Source of the DNA: Plumapathes pennacea
Taxonomy: Eukaryota; Cnidaria; Anthozoa; Antipatharia; Myriopathidae
Assembly: GCA_964036295.1 (NCBI GenBank)
Contig: OZ038462.1
Location: 20,584,363-20,648,362 of the forward strand
DNA length: 64,000 nucleotides
Reading direction: 5' to 3'
Part shown: piece by piece, positions 40,205 to 55,503 of the stretch
Position numbering within the stretch: position 1 is the first letter of the stretch
How the letters are laid out: each line of letters begins with the position of its first letter
Position numbers and translations under genes: made by a program
Notes under the pieces: generated by a model
The model's database searches: none
Told to the model about the DNA's origin: nothing
Seen by the model: only the letters and a program-made list of their open reading frames with translations

Positions 40205-40735
40205 TAGTGTCCTCTTATGTATTCCTATATATTCCTCTGTATTCTTTTGTATTCCTATGTATTCCCATGTATTCCCATGTATTCCTATGTATTCCCGTGT
40301 ATTCCTATGTATTCCTATGTATTCCTATGTATTCCCGTGTTTTCCCATGTATTCCCATGTATTCCTATGTATTCCAATGTATTCCTATGTATTCCTTTGT
40401 ATTCCCATGTATTCCGTGTTTTCTCATGTATTCCCATGTATTCCTATGTATTCCAATGTATTCCAATGTATTCCTTTGTATTCTCATGCATTCCGTGTTT
40501 TCCCATGTATTCCCATGTATTCCTATGCATTCCTATGTACTCCTATGTATTCCTATGTATTCCCATGTATTCCCTGTTTTCCCATGTATTTCTATGTATT
40601 CCTATGTATTCCAATGTATTCCTATGTATTCCTTTGTATTCCCATGCATTCCGTGTTTTCCCATGTATTCCCATGTATTCCTATGTATTCCTATGTATTC
40701 CTACGTATTCCTATATACATTCCCGTATACATGGG
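40205..40735 (+). repeat. decanucleotide satellite (TGTATTCCYA)n
   Basis: About fifty copies of the 10-bp unit 'tgtattccta/tgtattccca' lie on the plus strand, with 'ccgtgttttccca' variants at intervals giving a higher-order period of about 90-110 bp. A 10-bp unit in a 3-bp code leaves all three frames open, which creates long spurious reading frames rich in Tyr, Ser, Val, Phe and Pro. Confidence 0.9.
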
Positions 40736-40782
40736 AATACAGGGGAATAAATAGGAATACATGGGAAAACACGGGAAAACAC

Positions 40783-42309: not shown

Positions 42310-43078
42310 AAGGGCCTGGTACATATTAATACATAGGAATACATGGGAATACATAGGAATACAGTGGAATAAATAGATGATATTACACCGCGGCGCGAAG
42401 ATATGAATTTTATTTTCGAGTGGTAAAAAAATATTTTACAAACGAGCGCTTCGCGAGTGAGTAAAACATTGTTTTTACCACAAGAAAATAAAATCCATAT
42501 CTTGAAGCCGCCGTGTAATTTTCTTTTTATTATATTAGACACGAGTGTTTTACGAGAAATTGCACAAACAGCCGTGCAAAAGCGGGAAATGATTCCAACG
42601 ATATCCTCACTAGAGGATATGGAAACTACGCCACTCGGGTCCCGGATGTAGTTTCGTATGGATTTTACGCACGGTATATTTTCCAGTAAAACACTCGTGT
42701 TTATATAATAAATAGGAATACACGAGAATGTATGGGAAAACACGGGAATACACGGGAATACATAGGAATAAAGGGAAATTAATAGGAATACAGAAGAATA
42801 CATGGAAAAAGACGGGAATACATAGGAATACATAGGAATACATAGGAGTACATATGAATAGAGGGGAATACAGGGGAATAAATGGGAATACGCGAGAATA
42901 CATAAACACGGGAATACATGGGAATACATGGCAATATATGGGGATACATAGGAATACATAGGAATACAGGGGAATAAATAGGAATACACGAGAATACATG
43001 GGAAAACACGGGAAAACACGGGAATACATAGGAATACATAGGAATACATAGAAATACATGGGAATACATGGGAAAACA
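42310..43078 (-). repeat. decanucleotide satellite, inverted copy, interrupted by a foldback element
   Basis: The complement of the 40205-40735 satellite ('taggaataca/tgggaataca') occupies about 42325-42376 and 42707-43078. The break between them is exactly the foldback element at 42377-42706. Confidence 0.9.
42377..42706 (+). mobile_element. foldback element with 9-bp target duplication
   Basis: Flanked by 'aataaatag' at 42368-42376 and 42707-42715. The first ~170 bp fold into a long hairpin: 'tggtaaaa(a)aatatttta' against 'taaaacattgtttttacca', around 'cgagcgcttcgcgag'. Further palindromes lie around 'gatatcctcactagaggata'. Two more copies lie at 32466-32805 and 36164-36499. It is non-coding. 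Confidence 0.8.
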
Positions 43079-43253
43079 CGACGGCTGATTCCTTTGTATT
43101 CCCATGTATTCCTCAGTCACTAGCCTCAGTGTCCCTCCTACCACAATGCAAAGCGCACCGCACAGTCTGCAAATGTTTATTTTGCATCGTTCTCTTGCAA
43201 GAGCGAGGTATTTTTTGGCGAGAACCTGTAGCTTTTCTTCAAAGACTTCAACG

Positions 43254-46225
43254 ATGAGTGGCAATAAACCTTGCATTATTGTCGATGTAACATCTGACAC
43301 CATCTGACCATGGTAAGAGAGCTCTAAAATCTCTAGAGTTTTTGGAAGGGCATGCCATCTTGAAAACTGCATCCTTGCTCGATGTGTGTATATCTAGATA
43401 TATTTTATCGCTTCTTTTGCCTTTCTTTAGGTGCTATGTGGGGAAGCGTCATCTGGAGGAGGCCATGCAGGCATTCTCTGGAGACGTCAACTTCGAGGTG
43501 ACGTGGAAGCCATTCTTTTTGAACCGCAACACACCGGAAGCTGGTGTTCCCCTTATGGTGTACCTGGAGAAAAAGTTTGGACCCCAGGTGAAGAAACAGG
43601 CCCTTGAAGGAAGAAGTCCCTTGACGCAGGCTGGACAGGCAGTGGTAAGAATCATGTTGGGATATTGAATGCATCAGGCAGGATGCGAGACAATATATTA
43701 TATTGCTATGTATATGTAAAATTATAGAGTATGTCACTTTTACCTCGGAAGCTCTGCACTGCATGACCACATAGGGCTGGGGGTGAAACCATGGGTGGCT
43801 GGAGGCGAGGCAGAGCAGAGGCAAGAGAGTGAGGGGTGAGGAGGTTATGTCACCTCGCCCCCAGCCACTGCATGGAGCATCTGAAAGCGAAATAACCTCT
43901 GGCACTCAGGGCAATCATATGACTAATGTGTCAATCAATTCCAGCTGCTACCATCCCCTCCACCTCCTGGGCCCATCTCTGGGTATTTGCATTATTATAA
44001 TCCCCGAGTGAAGCGAGGGTAATATTTACGACGCTAATGCAGCATAGTCGCCTCATTTGAAGACTCCAAGCGTGTCGCCATCTCGAAATTTAATGTTCGT
44101 GTGTGTGTGTGTGTGTGTGTGTGGTACGACTTTTTAGGCCAGGTGCCTAAGGCAATGACGTAATAATCATCGATTAGCGTCTCCGCCAGTGCTTTTAAAA
44201 GATTTGAACGAAGCAATAATTCACGTAAGTGGTTTCACGAAAATGATTTTGAAAACTGGAAAACTTGAAACAGAACGGTCTCGCAAAGCTCGTCTTCAAC
44301 AGAGAAGGGAACAGGCACAGGCAAGGCGAAATCGTGAAACGATCGAACAGCGCCAAATACGTCTAGAGAAAAGACGACAAACATGTTATAACCGACAGCA
44401 TCCTGAACGGAAGCGTGCCGAAGGAATGGCTCCGCAAAGGGAACAGCGCTTGAAAGCAAATCGGGAGCTTCAGACGCTGTTTTGTGTTAAACTCAGATAC
44501 TTATTCAGAAAGGACAAGCAACAAAGGTTAGTCAGTGGAAATCGAACAATCACCGTGACAAATAATTATATTCTACCCGAGTGTAACTCGATCACTTCAA
44601 GAATGTATTAGGATCTGTATGCTGATCATTTTCCCTCGAAGTATTGTTTTAATACGCTTCTGTCGCCAGTTTCGGCTACCGTATTCGCTCAGAACAATCG
44701 GAACTTGGAGTCTTGAATGATTTAGTCAGAGGTCTTATTTTTTCTAGTTTCAAGACTGTAACAAATGCTGTAATCTGACATGCGGTGATTGCAGCGAGAG
44801 GTGAATCGTTCACAAGCCCTTCGAAGTATGACTAGATCTGAAGCCCGTGTATAATTTGAAATAAACCGTTCAAGTTTTGCTTTGATTCTGGGAGAATTTG
44901 AGCGGGTTCACATACGAAACAATTTGAGCTTATTAAATATGCATGCCTGAGTCTGGAGCATGCAGTCCAGAGTAAAAACAAATCGCACAGGAAGCCTATT
45001 TAATTGTACTGCCTAAAAATTCAAAATTGGAAAATCAGTGTTCCTGTTTTCCGTACTACGACGGCCGGCCAACTTCAAAATTTGAGTATTAATATTTGAG
45101 AACGTGCTTGGCAGACTGTATGAATTAATTTGACGTGCCGACCGTGGGAAATACGTACTTCGTCACGCAATCGACTCTTAAGCCTGGCCCTCACTAGCAC
45201 ATAAGCATAAGCATAAGCACAAGCATAAGAATAAGAATAAGAGAACGACAGTGGCGACATAAGCATAAGCATAAGGAACGAACATGTTTGATCCCTATGC
45301 TTATGTCGCCACTGTCGCTCTCTTATTCTTATGCTTATGCTTATGCTTATGCGCTAGTGAGGACCAGGCTTTATAACACACACCATTCCTTCCTTTGCGT
45401 GTAGCACTTGACTTCGAAGAAAAGATTGAGTCAACATTTCGGTAAAACAAAGGCTACTCTTGTTGGGATCAGTACCAAAGTAAAAGTCCTATCAATGGCA
45501 GAGCGAGGGGGTATCTGCGGTTATCGTATTTCTAGTTATAATATTATTTTTTGTGGAACAATAAACTCCCCACCCCCAGGTTACCAGAAATAATATTACA
45601 AGTGCCCCGCTCCAAGGCAAGTTTTTATGATCACCCCAGCATGTATGTGATTGGTTGTTGCACTCCTAATTTTTGAACATTTGTCATATAGGGTTGTAAG
45701 ATTCTGAAGATCAGTTGACTTGTCCACAGCCCCAGCCCCACCTTCCAAACAAATTTCAATCATGGTATTGCTTTTTTGCAGCTGACTAATCTTTCCTGCT
45801 CTGTCCTATTACAGGGAATCAACTTCAACAGCAACCGTTACATAGTCAACACCCTAAGATCTCACTGCCTTCTGGACTATGCCAAAACTGTGAACAAACA
45901 GGATGCAGTAGCAGAGAAACTCTTTGCGGCTTATTTTGAAGATGCGCAGAACATCAACTCTGAAGAGGTCTTGAGTTCACTGGCCACAGGACTGGGCTTG
46001 GATCAGGCGATGGTCACAAGGCACATGAAGGATCCAGCTGTTATTGCCCGAGTGGATGAAGAGGCTGCTGAGGCATTAGATCATGGTGTTAGTGGTGTTC
46101 CTTATTTTTTTATCCATCTGAAAGGTGACACTAAGAATGTGGCTGCTTTTTCTGGGGCTCAGCCTCCAGATACTTTTAAGAAATTGTTCCAACAGCAATT
46201 AACCAAAGTTAAATCTAATGTGTAG
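43254..46225 (+). CDS. DsbA/FrnE-family thiol oxidoreductase, candidate selenoprotein (UPWC)
   Basis: Three exons (43254-43312, 43431-43644, 45815-46225) join in phase to 227 residues, ending in TAG. Exon 1 reads MSGNKPCIIVDVTSDTI, then TGA at 43305-43307, then PW. Exon 2 continues CYVGKRHLEEAMQAF. FrnE-type DsbA proteins have CPWCYVGKR here, so TGA replaces exactly the first catalytic cysteine (residue 18). The rest is intact: the helical insert (LFAAYFEDAQNINSEEVL) and the cis-Pro loop (GVSGVPYFF), then FSGAQPPDTF. Length is normal for the family. The 3' UTR carries a SECIS-like structure at 46874-46940. Together these support Sec insertion, giving a U-x-x-C redox centre. The alternative is a nonsense mutation, but no other lesion is seen. 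Substrates are unknown; related proteins catalyse thiol-disulfide exchange. Confidence 0.88.
44035..44130 (+). repeat. (GT)n microsatellite region in intron 2
   Basis: 'gtgtgtgtgtgtgtgtgtgt' near 44100-44122. It lies in the 2.2-kb second intron of the DsbA/FrnE gene, next to a 'cccgagtgaagcgagggtaa' dispersed repeat. Confidence 0.8.
44189..44611 (+). pseudogene. Arg-rich STPR-like transposon protein fragment in an intron
   Basis: An open frame of 140 codons contains TERSRKARLQQRREQAQARR and RNRETIEQRQIRLEKRRQ, i.e. imperfect ~24-residue 'RRRxRxxxERxxxRxRR' units. Similar arginine-rich repeat regions occur at the N-terminus of Helitron-encoded and other transposon proteins. No helicase, Rep or DDE domain follows. 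It lies inside intron 2 of the DsbA/FrnE gene on the same strand, and is probably a transposon relic. Confidence 0.45.
45181..45370 (+). mobile_element. 190-bp palindromic MITE, TSD TTA
   Basis: The termini 'agcctggccctcactagcac' and 'gcgctagtgaggaccaggct' are inverted repeats flanked by TTA (45178-45180 and 45371-45373). The arms are made of 'cataag' tandem units and pair almost throughout. The 3-bp TTA duplication fits PIF/Harbinger. It lies in intron 2 of the DsbA/FrnE gene. Confidence 0.8.
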
Positions 46226-46873
46226 GTTGTGTCAAACAGTATTATAGTTACAGGCATTGTTTGAGTACTGCACCATGTGCACTTTTTATGTAATTTAGCT
46301 GCACTTTGTAACTGTAAGCTTTAAAAAAGTCCATATATATTTGCTGGGCCATCCTGTAGGCTTGCATCTGCTTTTGTTGCTTCATAACTGCAAAGTTCAC
46401 TTTCATTGTGTCATAATCTGTAGTTCAATCCCAATAACTCAAACCAGTAGCTTGAACCAATATTTGTTTCACTTCACTTTTGCTAGCACAATAATTTTAT
46501 CCCAGATGAGTTGAACTCCTCATAATTTGAAACACTTTTTGTTTCCCTTGGAGGTTCCAGTATTTTATTGGTCCCAAAATTATAATGCTGAAATACTTTG
46601 AATCAAAGAAAAGACAGGTGATTTTAGTGAGACTGATATTGCCAGGCCATTTTAGGTGGCACATTGCAACTGCACTTGCAAAGAGTGAGGGTTTAGTCGT
46701 CCTTCCCCCTCCCCCTGGGGCTTGGTTGAGCTGGGGTTGATTGATATGATTTTTGTTAAGTTATGCTAAGGCATTGTAAAGAGTAAACAACTAAGTGACT
46801 GTGAGATCTGCTGTTTCCCCTGTCAGAACTCAATTAAGAATATTAGTGGCATTTGATAGCCTGGGTTGGTCTT

Positions 46874-46940
46874 GTGTTTCTGTGATGATGACTTAGGAAG
46901 CAAACTTCGATTTTCCAGAGTCTGATGCTGCCAGAAATGT
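46874..46940 (+). promoter_or_regulatory. SECIS element (candidate) in the DsbA/FrnE 3' UTR
   Basis: Reading 5' to 3': lower helix TTTCTG (46877-46882) pairs with CAGAAA (46932-46937). The core ATGAT (46885-46889) faces TGAT (46923-46926), which gives U.U, G.A, A.G, U.U non-Watson-Crick pairs. Upper helix GACTTAGGAA (46890-46899) pairs with TTCCAGAGTC (46913-46922) with one A.A mismatch. The apical loop contains AAA (46902-46904). Spacing from the core to AAA is 12 nt. This is the eukaryotic SECIS layout, placed about 650 nt after the stop and about 100 nt before AATAAA. Confidence 0.85.
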
Positions 46941-47032
46941 GATCTAACTCACCTGTACAAATGGTTTGCAGACATATCACTATGTTAGAACAATGTATGG
47001 AACTGAAACTTGACTTTGCTTGCTGTATCAAG

Positions 47033-47038
47033 AATAAA
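47033..47038 (+). terminator. polyadenylation signal AATAAA of the DsbA/FrnE gene
   Basis: AATAAA in 'tcaagaataaaatatgac', about 810 nt after the stop codon and downstream of the SECIS candidate. Confidence 0.6.
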
Positions 47039-47229
47039 ATATGACGATATCGAGGAACGTCTTTTACTGCACATTTTGGTCTTGTAAAGCCAAATGAATT
47101 TTTTTTTCTGGGTTTACTAGATGTGAGGTAATTCTCTAACTTCAGAAATCTCACACATTTTTGGTGCCAGGATGGGAATTTGACACTTGAGGGAACCAAC
47201 CCTCCCAACGCCTTGGAGATGGGACCAAG

Positions 47230-47410
47230 TGCACTGTCCACCGATGTATCAACCAACCGTCGGCCACAGTTGACTGACTGTCAGTATACTTTCCAATGAC
47301 GAGTCAGTCGACAGTCAGTCACCAAGTTGATTGATGGTCGACCGACTCTTAGTCGACCTATGGTCAGCAGTTGGTAGGCAGTTAGTAATACTGTAAGTAA
47401 ATCAAATATT
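47230..47410. repeat. GTCAGT/GTCGAC-rich simple repeat
   Basis: Irregular alternation of 'gtcagt', 'agtcgac' and 'ggtcgacc' occurs across about 170 bp. The sequence to 48.0 kb holds nothing coding that is recognised. Confidence 0.5.
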
Positions 47411-48335
47411 TAATATTCTCACATAAGATCTATAATTTGAAAAAAAAAAAGAATTACTATTAAAATCAAGGAGTTTGAAATTTTAAAAAATATTTCAAGG
47501 TGTTTTTTTTAATTGGTTAATGTTCATGATCAAGAGGACAGAATGTTTCAAGTTCGCGTGAGCCGGTGTATGGCTGTTTATAGTTAGGACTGGTAACTAT
47601 TATACATACACGCATGCGCTGTAGCTGAGGTGGGCGATTTTATTCTTTGTTTCGTTTGGGGTACGTCTTTCCCGTGTTTGTTTTATAACTGTTAATTTAG
47701 CTCTTGAAGCCCTGACTTTACAGTTCGGGATCATTACTTGAACGTTTGTTCGCATACGATTTGTCCGCCCTATTTCTTTTGGCTTTTTCGCCTTTACACG
47801 GAAAAGCAGGAACGTGCACTTTAAAAAAGTGTTCAACTTTGCCAGTCTACTCTGCTAAATACGTTTTTATTGCTGAATCGATTGTTGTGTTTCAAACAGG
47901 AAGCATCGGAGTGAGAAAGCACTCTTTAACAATCTAGTCATAAATCACGCTAACATGTTGGAGAAACAGTTTGATTACCGTTTTTTATGTGTGTGTATAC
48001 TGAAGAACCGAAGTCACAAAGCTTCTTGTTTAGCAAAGTAAAAGAGACAACACATTGATGTTACACCTCTTTTTCAGGTGCAGGAAAGCTTTATTCAGTG
48101 TACTTCAGAAATCTTAACAAACCAGCATGGGTTGACATTTCGAGTTGCGAAGTGGTCCAGCATGGAGCAGTACGATATTGGATGATGTAAGAAACATGTG
48201 GAACATGAAGAGAATAGAGTCTTCAGCTGTAAATTTACGTTATTCAGCAAGAAGATGTTCGGGCAAACTTCCTGGTCTTCCAGGCTTAGTGAAACAAGAA
48301 ACCAATAAACAAGAAGCTTTGTGAGATCTACGGCC

Positions 48336-51300
48336 ATGAGCAGTGAAGAGCAAGCCAACACTCTGCGGCTTATCAGACTGCTGAATGTAGGAGGGACTGA
48401 TGCCCTGAGGGATGTGTTTGATGCCAAGTTTCCACCAGCCACACTGGCAGCATCACTTCGACCCCTACACACCACCCTACAAACACTGTTGAGGAAAAAA
48501 GTGTTAAACTTGTCACAGTGGGACAAGCTGTACCCTGCTGTACCAGGAACCCCAGATTCCAAGACTTTTGACATTTCTTTACTGTATGCACTTCTGCGGA
48601 GCATCTGTGGTTTCAAGTCTCCAAAACATCCACTGTGGACCAGTAATCCCCTAGCGGCAGACAGATCAGTTGAAGCCAACATTGCTCGTGTTAGGTGGTA
48701 TAGAAATGATGTCATCCACAACTTGGCATCAGGAGTTGATGATGTGACATTCCAGAACTACTGGACTGATATTTGTTCAGCACTGAAAGATCTGGGTATT
48801 CCTCAAGCAGAACTCGATGCCCTTAAAGACTCCCACCTTGATGAAAAGAAGTACACAGACATGTTGCTTGAATGGAAGAGAGAAGATCAGTTACTTCAAC
48901 AAAAAGTTGATGAGACTTTAACTGAAGTTGAAGACATGAAGCAAATGTTAAGAAAAGAAGAAGGAACAAAGGAATCAGTGTGTGAAATTAGAGATGAGCT
49001 GCAACAAGTTAAGAGGGAAGTTAAGGGCACTACAGATGAAGTGAAAGCTGTGAAGCAAATGATGAGCGAGGGACAGGAGACCACAAAGGAAGAAGTGCTC
49101 AGAAAGTTGGCCAAAATAAACTTCAACCAAGAAATGAAGTCTCAAGCCAAAAAGTGCCATCCAGGAACTCGTGAGTGGCTATTCAGCAAAGTAGAGGATT
49201 GGTTTCGAGATGAGGAGTCTGAATCACGAGTGATGATCATATTAGGAGATCCTGGCATGGGTAAGACTGTTGTTGCTGCAACAGTGTGCCAAAGAATGCA
49301 GACCTCAGGAAATCTTGGAGGGATGCATTTCTGTATACATGGAAATAAGCGCTACATGAACGCAAAGCTGATGCTGCAGTCACTTGCAAACAATTTGTGC
49401 AATGTCCTCCCTGCATACAAAACTGCGCTTATAGATTTGTTGTCCCATAATCTTGGTGAAGATCAGGATCTTGGTAAGATGAATGTGGAAGAGCTGTTCT
49501 GTTTTCTGCTTCAAGAACCCTTAAGTGAAGTACCTGCACCCAAGGAGCCATTCCTTTTTGTCATAGATGCTCTTGATGAAGCCGATTACCATGGGCGGAA
49601 TGAGTTAATGGATGTGATGTCTTCATACTTTGCCAGACTTCCTCCATGGCTAAAGTTCTTGGTTACATCAAGGTCAGATGTAAATGCAAAGTCAAAACTG
49701 GAAGATCTCTGTCCATTAGAAATAACCCCAGACCATGAGAGAAATGTGGAGGATTTGGAGTTATTTCTGAGAGAAAAACTGCAAGCATTTGTGCCTGCTG
49801 AGTGGCTTGATGCAACCTTGTCTTCATGTTTGAAGAAATCTCAAGGACAAATGCTGTATGCTTTTTGTACCATTGAATATCTTTCAAAGCATACCAACAT
49901 TTATTGGGAATATTTGGACAATGTTTTGCCAGATAAAATTTCTTCATGGTACAAGCACTATACAGATTGCCTGAAACAAGATCTTGGTGTAACAGATGCA
50001 GTATTCTCAAGATTCCTTGCTGCGTTGGTGGCATCAAGAGAACCTCTTCCTGTTGAAATCATTCCATTGCTACTGAAATTGGAAGCTGAAGAAGATCAAA
50101 GAATTGTGAGGTCTATTGAAGCTGTTTCGTCACTCCTGCCTCTGTGTGAGGAGAAAGTGCATGTGTTCCATAAGTCCTTCACTGACTGGTTGATTGAGCC
50201 TCAACCATATACCTACGGTAAACCCAGAGCTTATGTCACAGAGAGACAAGGTCACCAAGTTCTTAGAGAAGTGTGCAGTGAAGTATTGGAATCTTTGAAG
50301 AGCAAGACTGAACTTTTGAAGGACAATGACATCAGTTTGAGTGAGAGTTATGCCTTGAAACATGGTATGCAGCATGATGTGCTTCAGATTGAAGGGTCAG
50401 GAAATCAGAATGTGCAATTAAAGAATCTTGCCATTGATTTGGAATTTCTGTTGCTGAGACTCATTTACGGTTCAGTGTATGATGTCATTGAAGAGTATGA
50501 TGTCTGGGAAGGCAAGATGTCCCCAGATGCAACCCCAAAGGTAGAAGAGATCAAGTACATTCTAAGGGGGAATTCATCAATTCTTTCAGCCAGGCCACAA
50601 AACATTCTTGAACACATTGTTAATGAAGCTGAGTGTGAGGAATTGATAGCACAAGCTCATGAGCTGCTTCACAAGGAAAAGTACCAACACACCTGGATGG
50701 AAGTCATCAACAGAAAGATTGGAGACAAAACTAATATACTGGCTGAGCTAGAAGTTGGTAAACCAATTCATCAGTTTGAGGTTTCTCCTGATGGAAAAAT
50801 GCTTGCTGTGAATGCTGAATATGAAGGATCAAGGTCATCTGGGTTTGAGGAACTGTCCTTGTGGTTGATCACCTCTGGTAAACTCATGTGGAGAAAGAAG
50901 ATTACTGTATCAGAAAATATGCAATATTATCGCTGCTGCACCTTCTCTCCAGATGGCAATCTTATTTTGTTTGGCCGACTTGACCAAGTATGCCATATTT
51001 TGGATGGAGAATTTTGGCAATATTTTAACAAGAACAATCATGAATACTTCAACTGTCAGTTTTCTCATGATGGGAAAATGCTACTAACCCAGCCTAAGCC
51101 TGATTGTCTAATTCTGTGGGATGTGGACAAGCAGCTGCAGCTTCATGTATTGTTTGTGGGAAACAGTACACACAATAGGTTTGGAACAGTACAGTGCCAT
51201 GTTAAAGACTTCAAATTTTCTCTTTGTGGACAGTACATTGTTTTTGTCAGTTATTTTGAAATTTTTCTCTGGGATAGTAGCACTGGTATAAAACTAGACA

Positions 51301-52616
51301 GCATCAAGTTGGATGGAATGTCCTTGTGGTGGCACTTGGATTGGGTGTGCCCCCCTTCTGGTGGTCATCATCTGTTTTTGTCGTCTAGTTTGAAGAGACT
51401 CATTTTCAAGATCTCATCTTCGCAGTTGGTTAAATGTCACCAGGATTTTGATGCAACAGTGGAGTTCATCTTTTCAAGAGATGGAAAACATGGAACTGCT
51501 ATTATTGACACTGTTAAGGATGAATGTTTCAATAATAATGTAAATGATCAACTCAGTTGCTGCCCAATTAGTGTGGGGTCTCTGCTTGGTTATGGTAATT
51601 GTAAATTTGTAGATGAAAGGTCAGTGATTGTGGAAAGAAAGCGAGACTGTTCTAAACTTAAAACTTTACAGGTGGTCAGGACATCTGAAAGAGCAGAGCA
51701 TACAGGTACTTGCAGCATAGCCAGCCAGGAAAACTCTTGCATTTACACTTGTGCATTTTCTGAGGATGGCACCAGATTGTATACAATTGAACATACAGCT
51801 GATAGATTCCCAGATGGAGTACCACAGGTTTTTGTGTACAACACCAACCAAATGCAAGGTGGACATCTGCAGAAAAGGGCAACTACAGGAATTGATGCAG
51901 TTTTTTTATTTGTCCTCACAAGTGGTAAGGTCCTAGTCTTTTACAACTATTGTAAATGTGAAGTGTGGGATAGTGATTTGGAAAAGTTATTGTGGACTTG
52001 GGAATGTAAACAAGATGCCAGACCACTTTGTGCAGCAGAAGAAGTTGGAGTTTTTATGGGTGGCAGGTCTGGTGAAGTGATTGTCTGTGATGTACAAACT
52101 GGGAATGTGAAGTTCACATTGGAGGGACATAACGAGCAAGTGCACAAGGGCTGGATTGATCATCAGAATTCTTGCTTATTAACAACAGACATATTAAGTT
52201 CTGTGATTCTCTGGGATGTTGATTCACACAAACCTAAGGAATGCTACACATTTGTTGCTAAAATGGTGCGTGACTGCAGTTTTGCCAGTGAAAAACAGCT
52301 AGTTGCAGTGTTACTTAATGATGATGTGTACATTTTGGATAAATCAAGTAGAGAGATCATCAAGTGGCTGAATCACCTTTCAGTTTGCCGCATTTGCTTT
52401 GTGCATGGGACCAGTCTTCTTGCTTTTGTTGGACATACAAGTCTGTTTGTTGTGGACATCAGTACCTCTGATGAAAAGCTGGCAGTCGTCAGGTTTATGA
52501 AACCTAACAAATTCCAATTTGGGCTTTGTTACTCCCGAGAGTCAAGAAAGTTTACAGTTACTGGATCTGGTGGAATTTTGCTTGTGGAACTTCATAATTC
52601 ACCAAGCATTGGGTAA
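48336..52616 (+). CDS. NLR-type STAND protein: HEPN - coiled coil - NACHT - WD40-like propeller
   Basis: A single open exon of 1426 aa from ATG 48336. Residues about 1-150 are a HEPN domain of the DZIP3 type (LSQWDKLYPAVPGTPDSKTF, and the R-x4-H motif RNDVIH at 123-128). Residues about 165-265 are a coiled coil. NACHT follows with P-loop GDPGMGKT (304-311) and Walker B FLFVIDALDEAD (406-417), then a helical/winged region. From about 770 to the end there are repeated beta-propeller strands (VSPDGKMLAV; FSPDGNLILFG; ILWDVD). Proteins of this build are cytosolic innate sensors in which ligand-induced NTP-driven assembly activates the N-terminal effector; HEPN domains with R-x4-H are often RNases. 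The stop (TAA) lies inside a perfect donor (GGGTAAGT), so a spliced longer form is possible. Paralogous to the gene at 60.5 kb. Confidence 0.9.
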   Translation: MSSEEQANTLRLIRLLNVGGTDALRDVFDAKFPPATLAASLRPLHTTLQTLLRKKVLNLSQWDKLYPAVPGTPDSKTFDISLLYALLRSICGFKSPKHPLWTSNPLAADRSVEANIARVRWYRNDVIHNLASGVDDVTFQNYWTDICSALKDLGIPQAELDALKDSHLDEKKYTDMLLEWKREDQLLQQKVDETLTEVEDMKQMLRKEEGTKESVCEIRDELQQVKREVKGTTDEVKAVKQMMSEGQETTKEEVLRKLAKINFNQEMKSQAKKCHPGTREWLFSKVEDWFRDEESESRVMIILGDPGMGKTVVAATVCQRMQTSGNLGGMHFCIHGNKRYMNAKLMLQSLANNLCNVLPAYKTALIDLLSHNLGEDQDLGKMNVEELFCFLLQEPLSEVPAPKEPFLFVIDALDEADYHGRNELMDVMSSYFARLPPWLKFLVTSRSDVNAKSKLEDLCPLEITPDHERNVEDLELFLREKLQAFVPAEWLDATLSSCLKKSQGQMLYAFCTIEYLSKHTNIYWEYLDNVLPDKISSWYKHYTDCLKQDLGVTDAVFSRFLAALVASREPLPVEIIPLLLKLEAEEDQRIVRSIEAVSSLLPLCEEKVHVFHKSFTDWLIEPQPYTYGKPRAYVTERQGHQVLREVCSEVLESLKSKTELLKDNDISLSESYALKHGMQHDVLQIEGSGNQNVQLKNLAIDLEFLLLRLIYGSVYDVIEEYDVWEGKMSPDATPKVEEIKYILRGNSSILSARPQNILEHIVNEAECEELIAQAHELLHKEKYQHTWMEVINRKIGDKTNILAELEVGKPIHQFEVSPDGKMLAVNAEYEGSRSSGFEELSLWLITSGKLMWRKKITVSENMQYYRCCTFSPDGNLILFGRLDQVCHILDGEFWQYFNKNNHEYFNCQFSHDGKMLLTQPKPDCLILWDVDKQLQLHVLFVGNSTHNRFGTVQCHVKDFKFSLCGQYIVFVSYFEIFLWDSSTGIKLDSIKLDGMSLWWHLDWVCPPSGGHHLFLSSSLKRLIFKISSSQLVKCHQDFDATVEFIFSRDGKHGTAIIDTVKDECFNNNVNDQLSCCPISVGSLLGYGNCKFVDERSVIVERKRDCSKLKTLQVVRTSERAEHTGTCSIASQENSCIYTCAFSEDGTRLYTIEHTADRFPDGVPQVFVYNTNQMQGGHLQKRATTGIDAVFLFVLTSGKVLVFYNYCKCEVWDSDLEKLLWTWECKQDARPLCAAEEVGVFMGGRSGEVIVCDVQTGNVKFTLEGHNEQVHKGWIDHQNSCLLTTDILSSVILWDVDSHKPKECYTFVAKMVRDCSFASEKQLVAVLLNDDVYILDKSSREIIKWLNHLSVCRICFVHGTSLLAFVGHTSLFVVDISTSDEKLAVVRFMKPNKFQFGLCYSRESRKFTVTGSGGILLVELHNSPSIG

Positions 52617-53368: not shown

Positions 53369-53841
53369 CTCAATAATTATTGTAGCCGGATCAATTTTGC
53401 TGTGCTAGTAGCTGGTTCATCTTTACTCAAAAAGCATTCATTAACTCATTGTTGTCTCAATCTTCAAGAAGTCTTTGTGTTCAGTTCTTTGATTATCGAA
53501 TTCCTTGGTGTCTTTGAGGGTTTTTCTGCCAAGACTTTGATCTGTAGCTTGTGGTTGCATTCTTTGGCTTTGTTTGTGGTTGGTTTGCTTGCTGCTAGCT
53601 TGCCTTCTGCAAATTTTCAAACTTGGCTTGTTTTTCCAGTTCCAGTGGAGTCCAGTGCGTGCATTGCAGTATTGTTGCATGCTCGTTCGCATCTGGTCAG
53701 CAAGCATTTTTGTCATATTGGGCTTTAGAATATTGTAAAGATCAGTTAACATGTTCCCAGCCCGGCTCCACCCCAAAAACAAATTTCAATGGTATTGCCT
53801 TTTTGATGTTGGCTAATCTTTCATGCTCTGCCGTATTACAG

Positions 53842-54258
53842 GGAATCAACTTCAACAGCAATTGTTACATAGTCAACGCCCTAAGATCTCACTGCCTTTT
53901 GGACTATGCCAACAAACAGGATGTAAACAAACAGGATGCAGTAACAGATAAACTCTTTGCAGCTTATTTTGAAGATGTACAGAACATCAACTCTGAAGAG
54001 GTCTTGAGTTCACTGGCCACAGGACTGGGCTTGGATCAAGCGATGGTCATGAGGCACGTTAAGGATCCAGCCGTTCTTGCCCAAGTGGATGAAGAGGCTG
54101 CCAAGGCATTAGATCGTGGTGTTAATGGTGTTTCATATTTTGTTACCCATCTGAAAGGTGACACTAAGAATGTGGCTGCTTTTTCTGGGGCTCAGCCTCC
54201 GGATACTTTTGAGAAATTGTTCCAACAGCAATTAACCAAAGTTAAATCTAATGTGTAG
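53842..54258 (+). pseudogene. partial duplicate of the DsbA/FrnE third exon
   Basis: The exon body and about 110 bp of upstream intron match 45700-46225, as does the 3' flank to about 55140. Exons 1 and 2 are absent between the NLR and this block, so the UPWC site is missing. The cis-proline loop has changed from VPYF to VSYF, and a short in-frame insertion (NKQDVNKQD) is present. In the 3' flank the SECIS-equivalent sequence is deleted: the text jumps from 'gtctgggtcgagtct' to 'catgctaccagaaattt'. It cannot encode the redox enzyme. Confidence 0.85.
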
Positions 54259-55503
54259 GTTGTGTCAAACAGTATTATAGTTACAGGCATAGTTTGAGTA
54301 CTGCACCATGTGCACTTTTCATGTAATTTAGCTGCACTTTGTAACCATAAGCTCTAACAAAGCCCATCTATATTTGCTGGGCCATCCTGTAGGCTTGCAA
54401 CTGCTTTTGTTGCTTCATTACTGCAAAGTTCACTTTCACTGTGTCATAATCTGTAATTCAATCCCAATAACTTGAACCTTCTGGTAGCTCGAACCAAAAT
54501 TTGTTTCACTTTGATTTTGCTAGCACTATAATTTTATCCTGGATGAGTTGAACTCCTCATAATTCGAAAAACTTTTTGTTTCCCTTAGAGGGTTGAGTTA
54601 TTGGTCCCAACATTATAATGCTGAAATACTTAGAATCAAAGAAAAGACAGGTGATTTTAGTGAGACTGATATTGCCAGGCCATTTTAGGTGGCACTGCAA
54701 CTGCACTTGCAAAGAGTGAAGGTTTAGTCATCCCCCCTCCCCCCTGGGGCTTAGTTGAGCTGGGATTGATTGATATAATATTTTGTTAAATTATGCTTAG
54801 ACTTTGTAAACAGTAAACAACCAAGTGACTAAGCTCTGCTGTTTTCCCTATCAGAACTCAAATATGAATATTAGTGGCATTTGATAGTCTGGGTCGAGTC
54901 TCATGCTACCAGAAATTTGATCTAACTCACCTGTGCAAATGGTTTGGAGACATCACTATAATTTAGAACATTGTATAGAACTGGAATTTGGACTTTTCTT
55001 GCTGTCCAGAATAAATATGATAATATTGAGAAATCTCTTGTACTGTGTTTTCTTTTTTCTTGGTCTACTAGGTGTGGAAGAAATCTCCAACATCAGCAAT
55101 TTCATACAATTTTTTGGTGCCAGAGTGGGAACTTGACATTTGGGGGAACTGACCCTCCCACCTCCCAGTTTCAGGGAGGAAGTGAAGACTTCAAACCAAA
55201 ACTCACCCCACACTCATGCCAGACTTTTGACAGAAGAAAAAAATGCTTAAGCACTGCAACGCCTTCAGGAACTTTTAGCGGTTTACCAGTGCAGGCGAAA
55301 TTTTCTGTTTTTGTTTTTGTTTTTGTTTTTGTTTCTGTTTGAAGTTAATTTCTATTGTCAAAGTTGACCTCATTGCCAAGTTCACCTGAGCCAACAATGT
55401 TGCAGTACGTGATGGTGCAGTGTGCAACTTCTTTGTCTTTTTAGTTTTATAACTGTTGGGTACAATGTGTCCAGTTATTTCCTTTAACTTTTTCACCTTT
55501 TAA

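Follow-up and report, generated by a model that had tools for sequence, protein, structure and literature searches.

A candidate selenoprotein gene of the FrnE/DsbA type in Plumapathes pennacea and its partial tandem copy

The window analysed here, by which we mean the whole 64,000-nucleotide stretch of Plumapathes pennacea DNA, contains a three-exon gene in which the UGA at codon 18 most likely encodes selenocysteine (Sec) in place of the leading Cys in the CxxC motif of a FrnE/DsbA-type protein, making it a candidate selenoprotein gene. A preliminary description of this DNA had proposed putative Sec insertion at the catalytic Cys, and this is still the best reading given the site of the TGA, the tally of homologues, a SECIS candidate in the 3' UTR, and the tRNA-Sec and other TGA-bearing genes found elsewhere in the genome.

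The coding sequence, join(43254..43312, 43431..43644, 45815..46225), is 684 nt long, is divisible by 3 and comprises 227 codons; when spliced it has one internal stop, the TGA at 43305-43307 that forms codon 18, and its terminal stop is the TAG at 46223-46225. The motif at the TGA reads I-(TGA)-P-W-C-Y-V-G-K-R and the product is MSGNKPCIIVDVTSDTI-U-PWCYVGKRHLEE... Both donors (ATG/GTAAGA and GTG/GTAAGA, the slash marking the splice site) are canonical, the acceptors are ...TTCTTTAG/G for intron 1 and ...TATTACAG/G for intron 2, and the introns lie in phase 2 and phase 0 respectively. The preliminary description had a sole in-frame TGA falling on the first Cys of CPWC-YVGKR and three open exons, in phase and closed by a true TAG stop, and both points are borne out by this gene model, whose features are as follows.

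43254..43312, + strand: exon 1, coding part, encoding MSGNKPCIIVDVTSDTI-U-P-W and ending two bases into the Trp codon
43305..43307, + strand: in-frame TGA, codon 18, proposed Sec at position 1 of CPWC (from splicing, alignment and the homologue tally)
43313..43430, + strand: intron 1, GT-AG, phase 2 (from the splice sites)
43431..43644, + strand: exon 2, running from the second Cys (CYVGKR...) as far as ...AGQAV (from the spliced translation)
43645..45814, + strand: intron 2, GT-AG, phase 0, containing an inverted repeat at 45211-45352 (from the splice sites)
45815..46225, + strand: exon 3, coding part, TAG-terminated, carrying the GVSGVP motif (from the spliced translation)
46226..47056, + strand: 3' UTR, 831 nt, its end placed from the poly-A signal AATAAA at 47033
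46876..46938, + strand: SECIS candidate (Rfam SECIS_1, 25.7 bits; best place in the window by our own descriptor)

The GVSGVP of exon 3 we take, from knowledge of the fold, to be the cis-Pro site. An upstream in-frame Met at 43173 (43173-43253) would add MFILHRSLARARYFLARTCSFSSKTST ahead of the assumed start; this extension resembles a presequence, with four Arg, one Lys and no acidic residue, but the resemblance is not significant, its hydrophobic moment being reached by 524 of 2000 shuffles. The inverted repeat in intron 2 has arms of 62 nt that are 92% complementary and is built on CATAAG units; its appearance is that of a foldback or MITE-type element.

When the TGA is read through, the protein matches PF01323 (DSBA) at 3.4e-35 over residues 10-216 (122 bits, cut-off 25.6), and the closest solved structures by sequence are D. 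radiodurans FrnE (5cnw, 4.4e-26, residues 4-213) and then SCO1869 (9.9e-23), with both alignments running through CPWCY-GK. The NCBIfam search gave a weak partial match to a (seleno)lipoprotein family, at 26 bits against a cut-off of 190. As the spliced protein is not one continuous stretch of the window, the fold was modelled for P0001, a relative that is 60% identical, using an alignment (A4) of 36 sequences. The P0001 model has a pLDDT of 96.8, with a strand at 7-14 and a helix at 19-34, and residue 18 immediately precedes that helix, the usual place of the nucleophile in a thioredoxin-fold CxxC. Foldseek with this model placed D. radiodurans FrnE entries in the top five positions (TM 0.79-0.84 by query length) and SCO1869 next. 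The DsbA/FrnE-type assignment of the preliminary description is therefore upheld, by PF01323 and by FrnE being the best PDB match by sequence and, for P0001, by fold; with strong confidence, the gene product is a single-domain FrnE/DsbA-type thiol oxidoreductase with a predicted UxxC site, U-P-W-C.

D. radiodurans FrnE (5cnw, 5cp1, 5xwh) is the best solved match by both measures and shares the CPWCY-GKR motif, but it has Cys where the window protein has the proposed Sec and is 260 residues long rather than 227. We also presume that it has a second, C-terminal cysteine motif; this is absent from the 227-residue product, which has no Cys beyond residue 109, whereas Cys239 appears in the title of 5cp1. 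The 2-hydroxychromene-2-carboxylate isomerases and kappa-class GSTs share the superfamily fold and gave weaker Foldseek matches, but the window protein has UxxC/CxxC and is much closer to FrnE. On contig C5 the genome has a third DSBA match, a separate exon, which was set aside as HCCA-isomerase-like by eye and not FrnE.

The position of the TGA was followed through 178 fetched homologues (71 listed in one search and 120 of 7958 listed in another, the two partly overlapping). The motif was found in 155 of these, with Cys at the TGA position in 154, some of which could hide Sec as the programs used turn U into C, and Trp in one, P0001; the remaining 23 are mostly shortened or genomic fragments. 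P0001 is a continuous frame of 227 residues on a contig of 1122 nt, which suggests spliced RNA, exon 1 is conserved with it in the alignment, and its Trp may best be read as a TGA translated under another code, judging from the protein rather than the codon. Four fragments (P0057, P0058, P0060 and P0069) enter exon 2 as ...FR-CFVGKR across the same boundary, which would be the unspliced reading of an acceptor TTTAG/G TGC. The nearest named homologues are corals, and all four of them, P0007 (Montipora foliosa), P0008 (Acropora muricata), P0012 (M. capricornis) and P0015 (Oculina patagonica), start downstream of the TGA site, as would be expected if annotators stop at UGA, and this explains why coral gene models miss the active site. 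P0015 is shorter than the others and may be a partial sequence.

The preliminary description had invoked a SECIS candidate with no location given for it, and one was found at 46876-46938, ahead of the AATAAA at 47033 and so within the 3' UTR. AUGA is present, the apical loop has AA, the 3' side carries UGAU, and helices I and II are there as well. The SECIS_1 match was obtained by scanning 46150-48500 alone, and its 25.7 bits, below the curated cut-off of 35, correspond to an E-value of 0.041 against 4227 families in 2351 bp. Rfam at curated cut-offs returned nothing in the whole window, the candidate was not among the matches listed by a permissive scan of the whole window, and it was not among the 11 places listed in a genome-wide search with RF00031, in which 150 of 4541 candidates were scored. 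Our own SECIS descriptor gave the candidate a score of 20, the highest in the window, and on 40 random 64-kb sequences (first-order Markov, keeping dinucleotide content approximately) it averaged 0.425 hits per sequence on one strand with a maximum score of 16; since the descriptor was written after the candidate had been seen, this is a check of specificity and not an independent discovery. The other places that it found in the window were at 46888 (a second register of the candidate, score 18) and 48706 (score 14), with none on the minus strand. Folding lends no support: the stretch is equalled or bettered by 134 of 200 shuffles (z 0.54) with a program that does not model the non-canonical quartet. 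As a genomic yardstick, the SECIS match downstream of a TGA-bearing GPx scores 24.0 bits; the 25.7 bits of the candidate fall in the range of SECIS matches beside the selenoprotein genes of this genome, although the score alone is no proof. What makes the case for a SECIS is where the candidate sits, in the 831-nt 3' UTR of a gene whose catalytic Cys position holds a TGA.

The host decodes UGA as Sec, as seen from a tRNA-Sec, a thioredoxin reductase (TrxR) and TGA-bearing GPx genes. The tRNA-Sec lies on contig C11 (76.3 bits) and is confirmed by ARAGORN with anticodon TCA. At least 11 places in the genome are listed for RF00031 under the same scoring of 150 of 4541 candidates; the best of those listed, at 44.6 bits, follows a deiodinase exon at ~1 kb, and another, at 32.3 bits, follows at ~160 nt a TrxR frame whose end reads GGC TGC TGA GGT TAG, encoding Gly-Cys-UGA-Gly and then a stop. 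The place of 24.0 bits (C5:1966933-1966998, minus strand) is downstream of two GPx matches, C5:1968170-1968319 with one TGA and C5:1967366-1967554 with none, which are taken for two exons of one gene. GPx (PF00255) has 15 matches genome-wide, eight of them with exactly one TGA. Seven GPx exon matches, three with one TGA each, lie within ~29 kb at G000 C2:9628055-9656945. Comparable SECIS scores seem to occur outside selenoprotein genes too, as two near-identical SECIS_1 matches among the other eight listed places, L016 (G000 C7:13314634, 26.5 bits) and L018 (C6:14986708, 26.2 bits), look by eye to be copies of one dispersed repeat, and would be either chance matches or mobile SECIS-like hairpins.

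It would seem very unlikely that the gene is instead a pseudogene or the product of a sequencing error, in which a FrnE gene with Cys had its TGC or TGT mutated or misread to TGA. Such a change takes one base, and the gene has a degraded partial copy at a distance of 8 kb. However, the rest of the frame is open and conserved with canonical splice sites, the 3' UTR has its SECIS candidate, P0001 departs from Cys at exactly this codon, the four named coral proteins begin downstream of the site, and the family is a known selenoprotein in Nematostella (PMC3473315). Less probable still, and the least likely of the readings that we have considered, is a start downstream of the TGA at the exon 2 Met (...EEAMQAF), giving a protein without an active site as in the coral annotations. 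Seven homologues, P0002-P0008, do start at the corresponding Met or only a few residues from it, but a product of this kind would have no first strand and would keep only a minor part of the helix after the CxxC (7-14 and 19-34 in the P0001 model), and it would leave the conservation of exon 1 with P0001 to be accounted for; furthermore the same mis-annotation, which put the Sec-TGA into the 5' UTR, is described for DsbA of Ciona and amphioxus (PMC2874816).

If the UGA is indeed read as Sec, it would be decoded by SBP2 and eEFSec acting at the SECIS of 46876-46938. In the enzyme Sec18 would then attack and Cys21 resolve, with disulfides or selenenylsulfides being exchanged on substrates or peroxides. 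The protein is probably located in the cytosol, or possibly in mitochondria by way of the upstream Met at 43173.

The preliminary description had hinted that the family might be new to animals, whilst itself being unable to rule out a prior description, and this hint does not stand: animal Sec-DsbA/FrnE was published in 2010 and 2012 and is in SelenoDB 2.0 (PMC2874816, PMC3473315, PMC3965025), with two genes in the anthozoan Nematostella. In the first of these, a DsbA selenoprotein is reported from Ciona intestinalis, C. savignyi and Branchiostoma floridae, in which Sec takes the place of the upstream Cys in CxxC and whose TGA exon had been mis-annotated as UTR (PMC2874816). The second counts two Sec-DsbA in Nematostella vectensis and one each in Lottia, Capitella and Branchiostoma, with Cys forms in Amphimedon and Trichoplax (PMC3473315), and SelenoDB 2.0 records 'FrnE (DsbA)' as an added animal selenoprotein family (PMC3965025). 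In other papers, Acropora, Nematostella, Hydra and Trichoplax are found to carry dsbA genes, whose prediction selenoproteins were suspected to disturb (PMC3640398), and some green algae have FrnE selenoproteins (PMC6627142). Neither the family nor the position of its Sec nor the SECIS mechanism is new for animals, an anthozoan among them. The window gene shares with the animal proteins (Ciona, Branchiostoma, Nematostella, Lottia, Capitella) the DSBA domain, the proposed Sec at CxxC position 1, a putative 3' UTR SECIS and a TGA-bearing exon 1 that is easily missed by annotation, a likeness drawn from published descriptions; it differs in having a downstream partial tandem copy without most of the SECIS. 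No published account of this particular gene was found in the literature searched. What is added here is one more member of the family, together with a partial duplicate that lacks a functional SECIS; it is one more case for a published invertebrate selenoprotein family, and general views are unchanged.

The gene has one partial tandem copy, 8 kb downstream at ~53700 to 55130, made up of the tail of intron 2, exon 3 and the 3' UTR, and the four matches listed in a genome-wide protein search are the three exons and this copy of exon 3.

53842..54258, + strand: exon-3 copy, protein 85.5% identical, Pro of GVSGVP changed to Ser
54259..55130, + strand: 3' UTR copy, end approximate, with a 50-nt gap relative to the gene

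As intron-2 sequence precedes its acceptor, the copy is a DNA duplication, and for the same reason the idea of a retrocopy (one open frame, family positions 8-190) was rejected. It has diverged from the gene at 31 of 411 coding positions, 78 of 768 in the UTR and 38 of 150 in the intron tail, and it retains the acceptor, the frame and the TAG, but two positions at which the family alignments show no variation have changed in it (Thr104 to Ala and Pro187 to Ser). Leaving out two gene codons and four copy codons around a length difference, there are 28 differences in 402 sites (10, 6 and 12 by codon position), giving dN 0.056 and dS 0.135 by NG86 and 0.075 and 0.074 respectively by YN00. The largest gap between the two is of 50 nt (46868-46917 in gene coordinates) and takes 42 of the 63 SECIS bases, from the 5' side through the apical loop into the 3' side, and the surviving TGAT is TCAT in the copy; a scan of the same size as that of the gene listed no SECIS in the 3' region of the copy. 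We infer that the 50 nt were lost in the copy and not gained in the gene, and most likely the copy is decaying and nothing held its SECIS in place. It is a modest natural case of a SECIS probably lost after duplication. There is a very slim chance, slightly below that of the pseudogene or error, that the exon-3 copy is an alternative last exon, with splicing picking either a SECIS-bearing mRNA for the Sec enzyme or a SECIS-less mRNA ending at the UGA; if true, this would be a splicing switch for a selenoprotein.

Finally, the interval from the FrnE gene to its partial copy holds an NLR-like gene on the same strand (48336-52616), a single-exon frame of 1426 aa with HEPN_DZIP3, NACHT/NPHP3_N and WD40-type repeats. 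Arrays of a 10-bp minisatellite (GGAATACATG-like) are found at 40216-40781, 42320-42376 and 42707-43080, the last of which ends ~170 bp upstream of the FrnE start codon.
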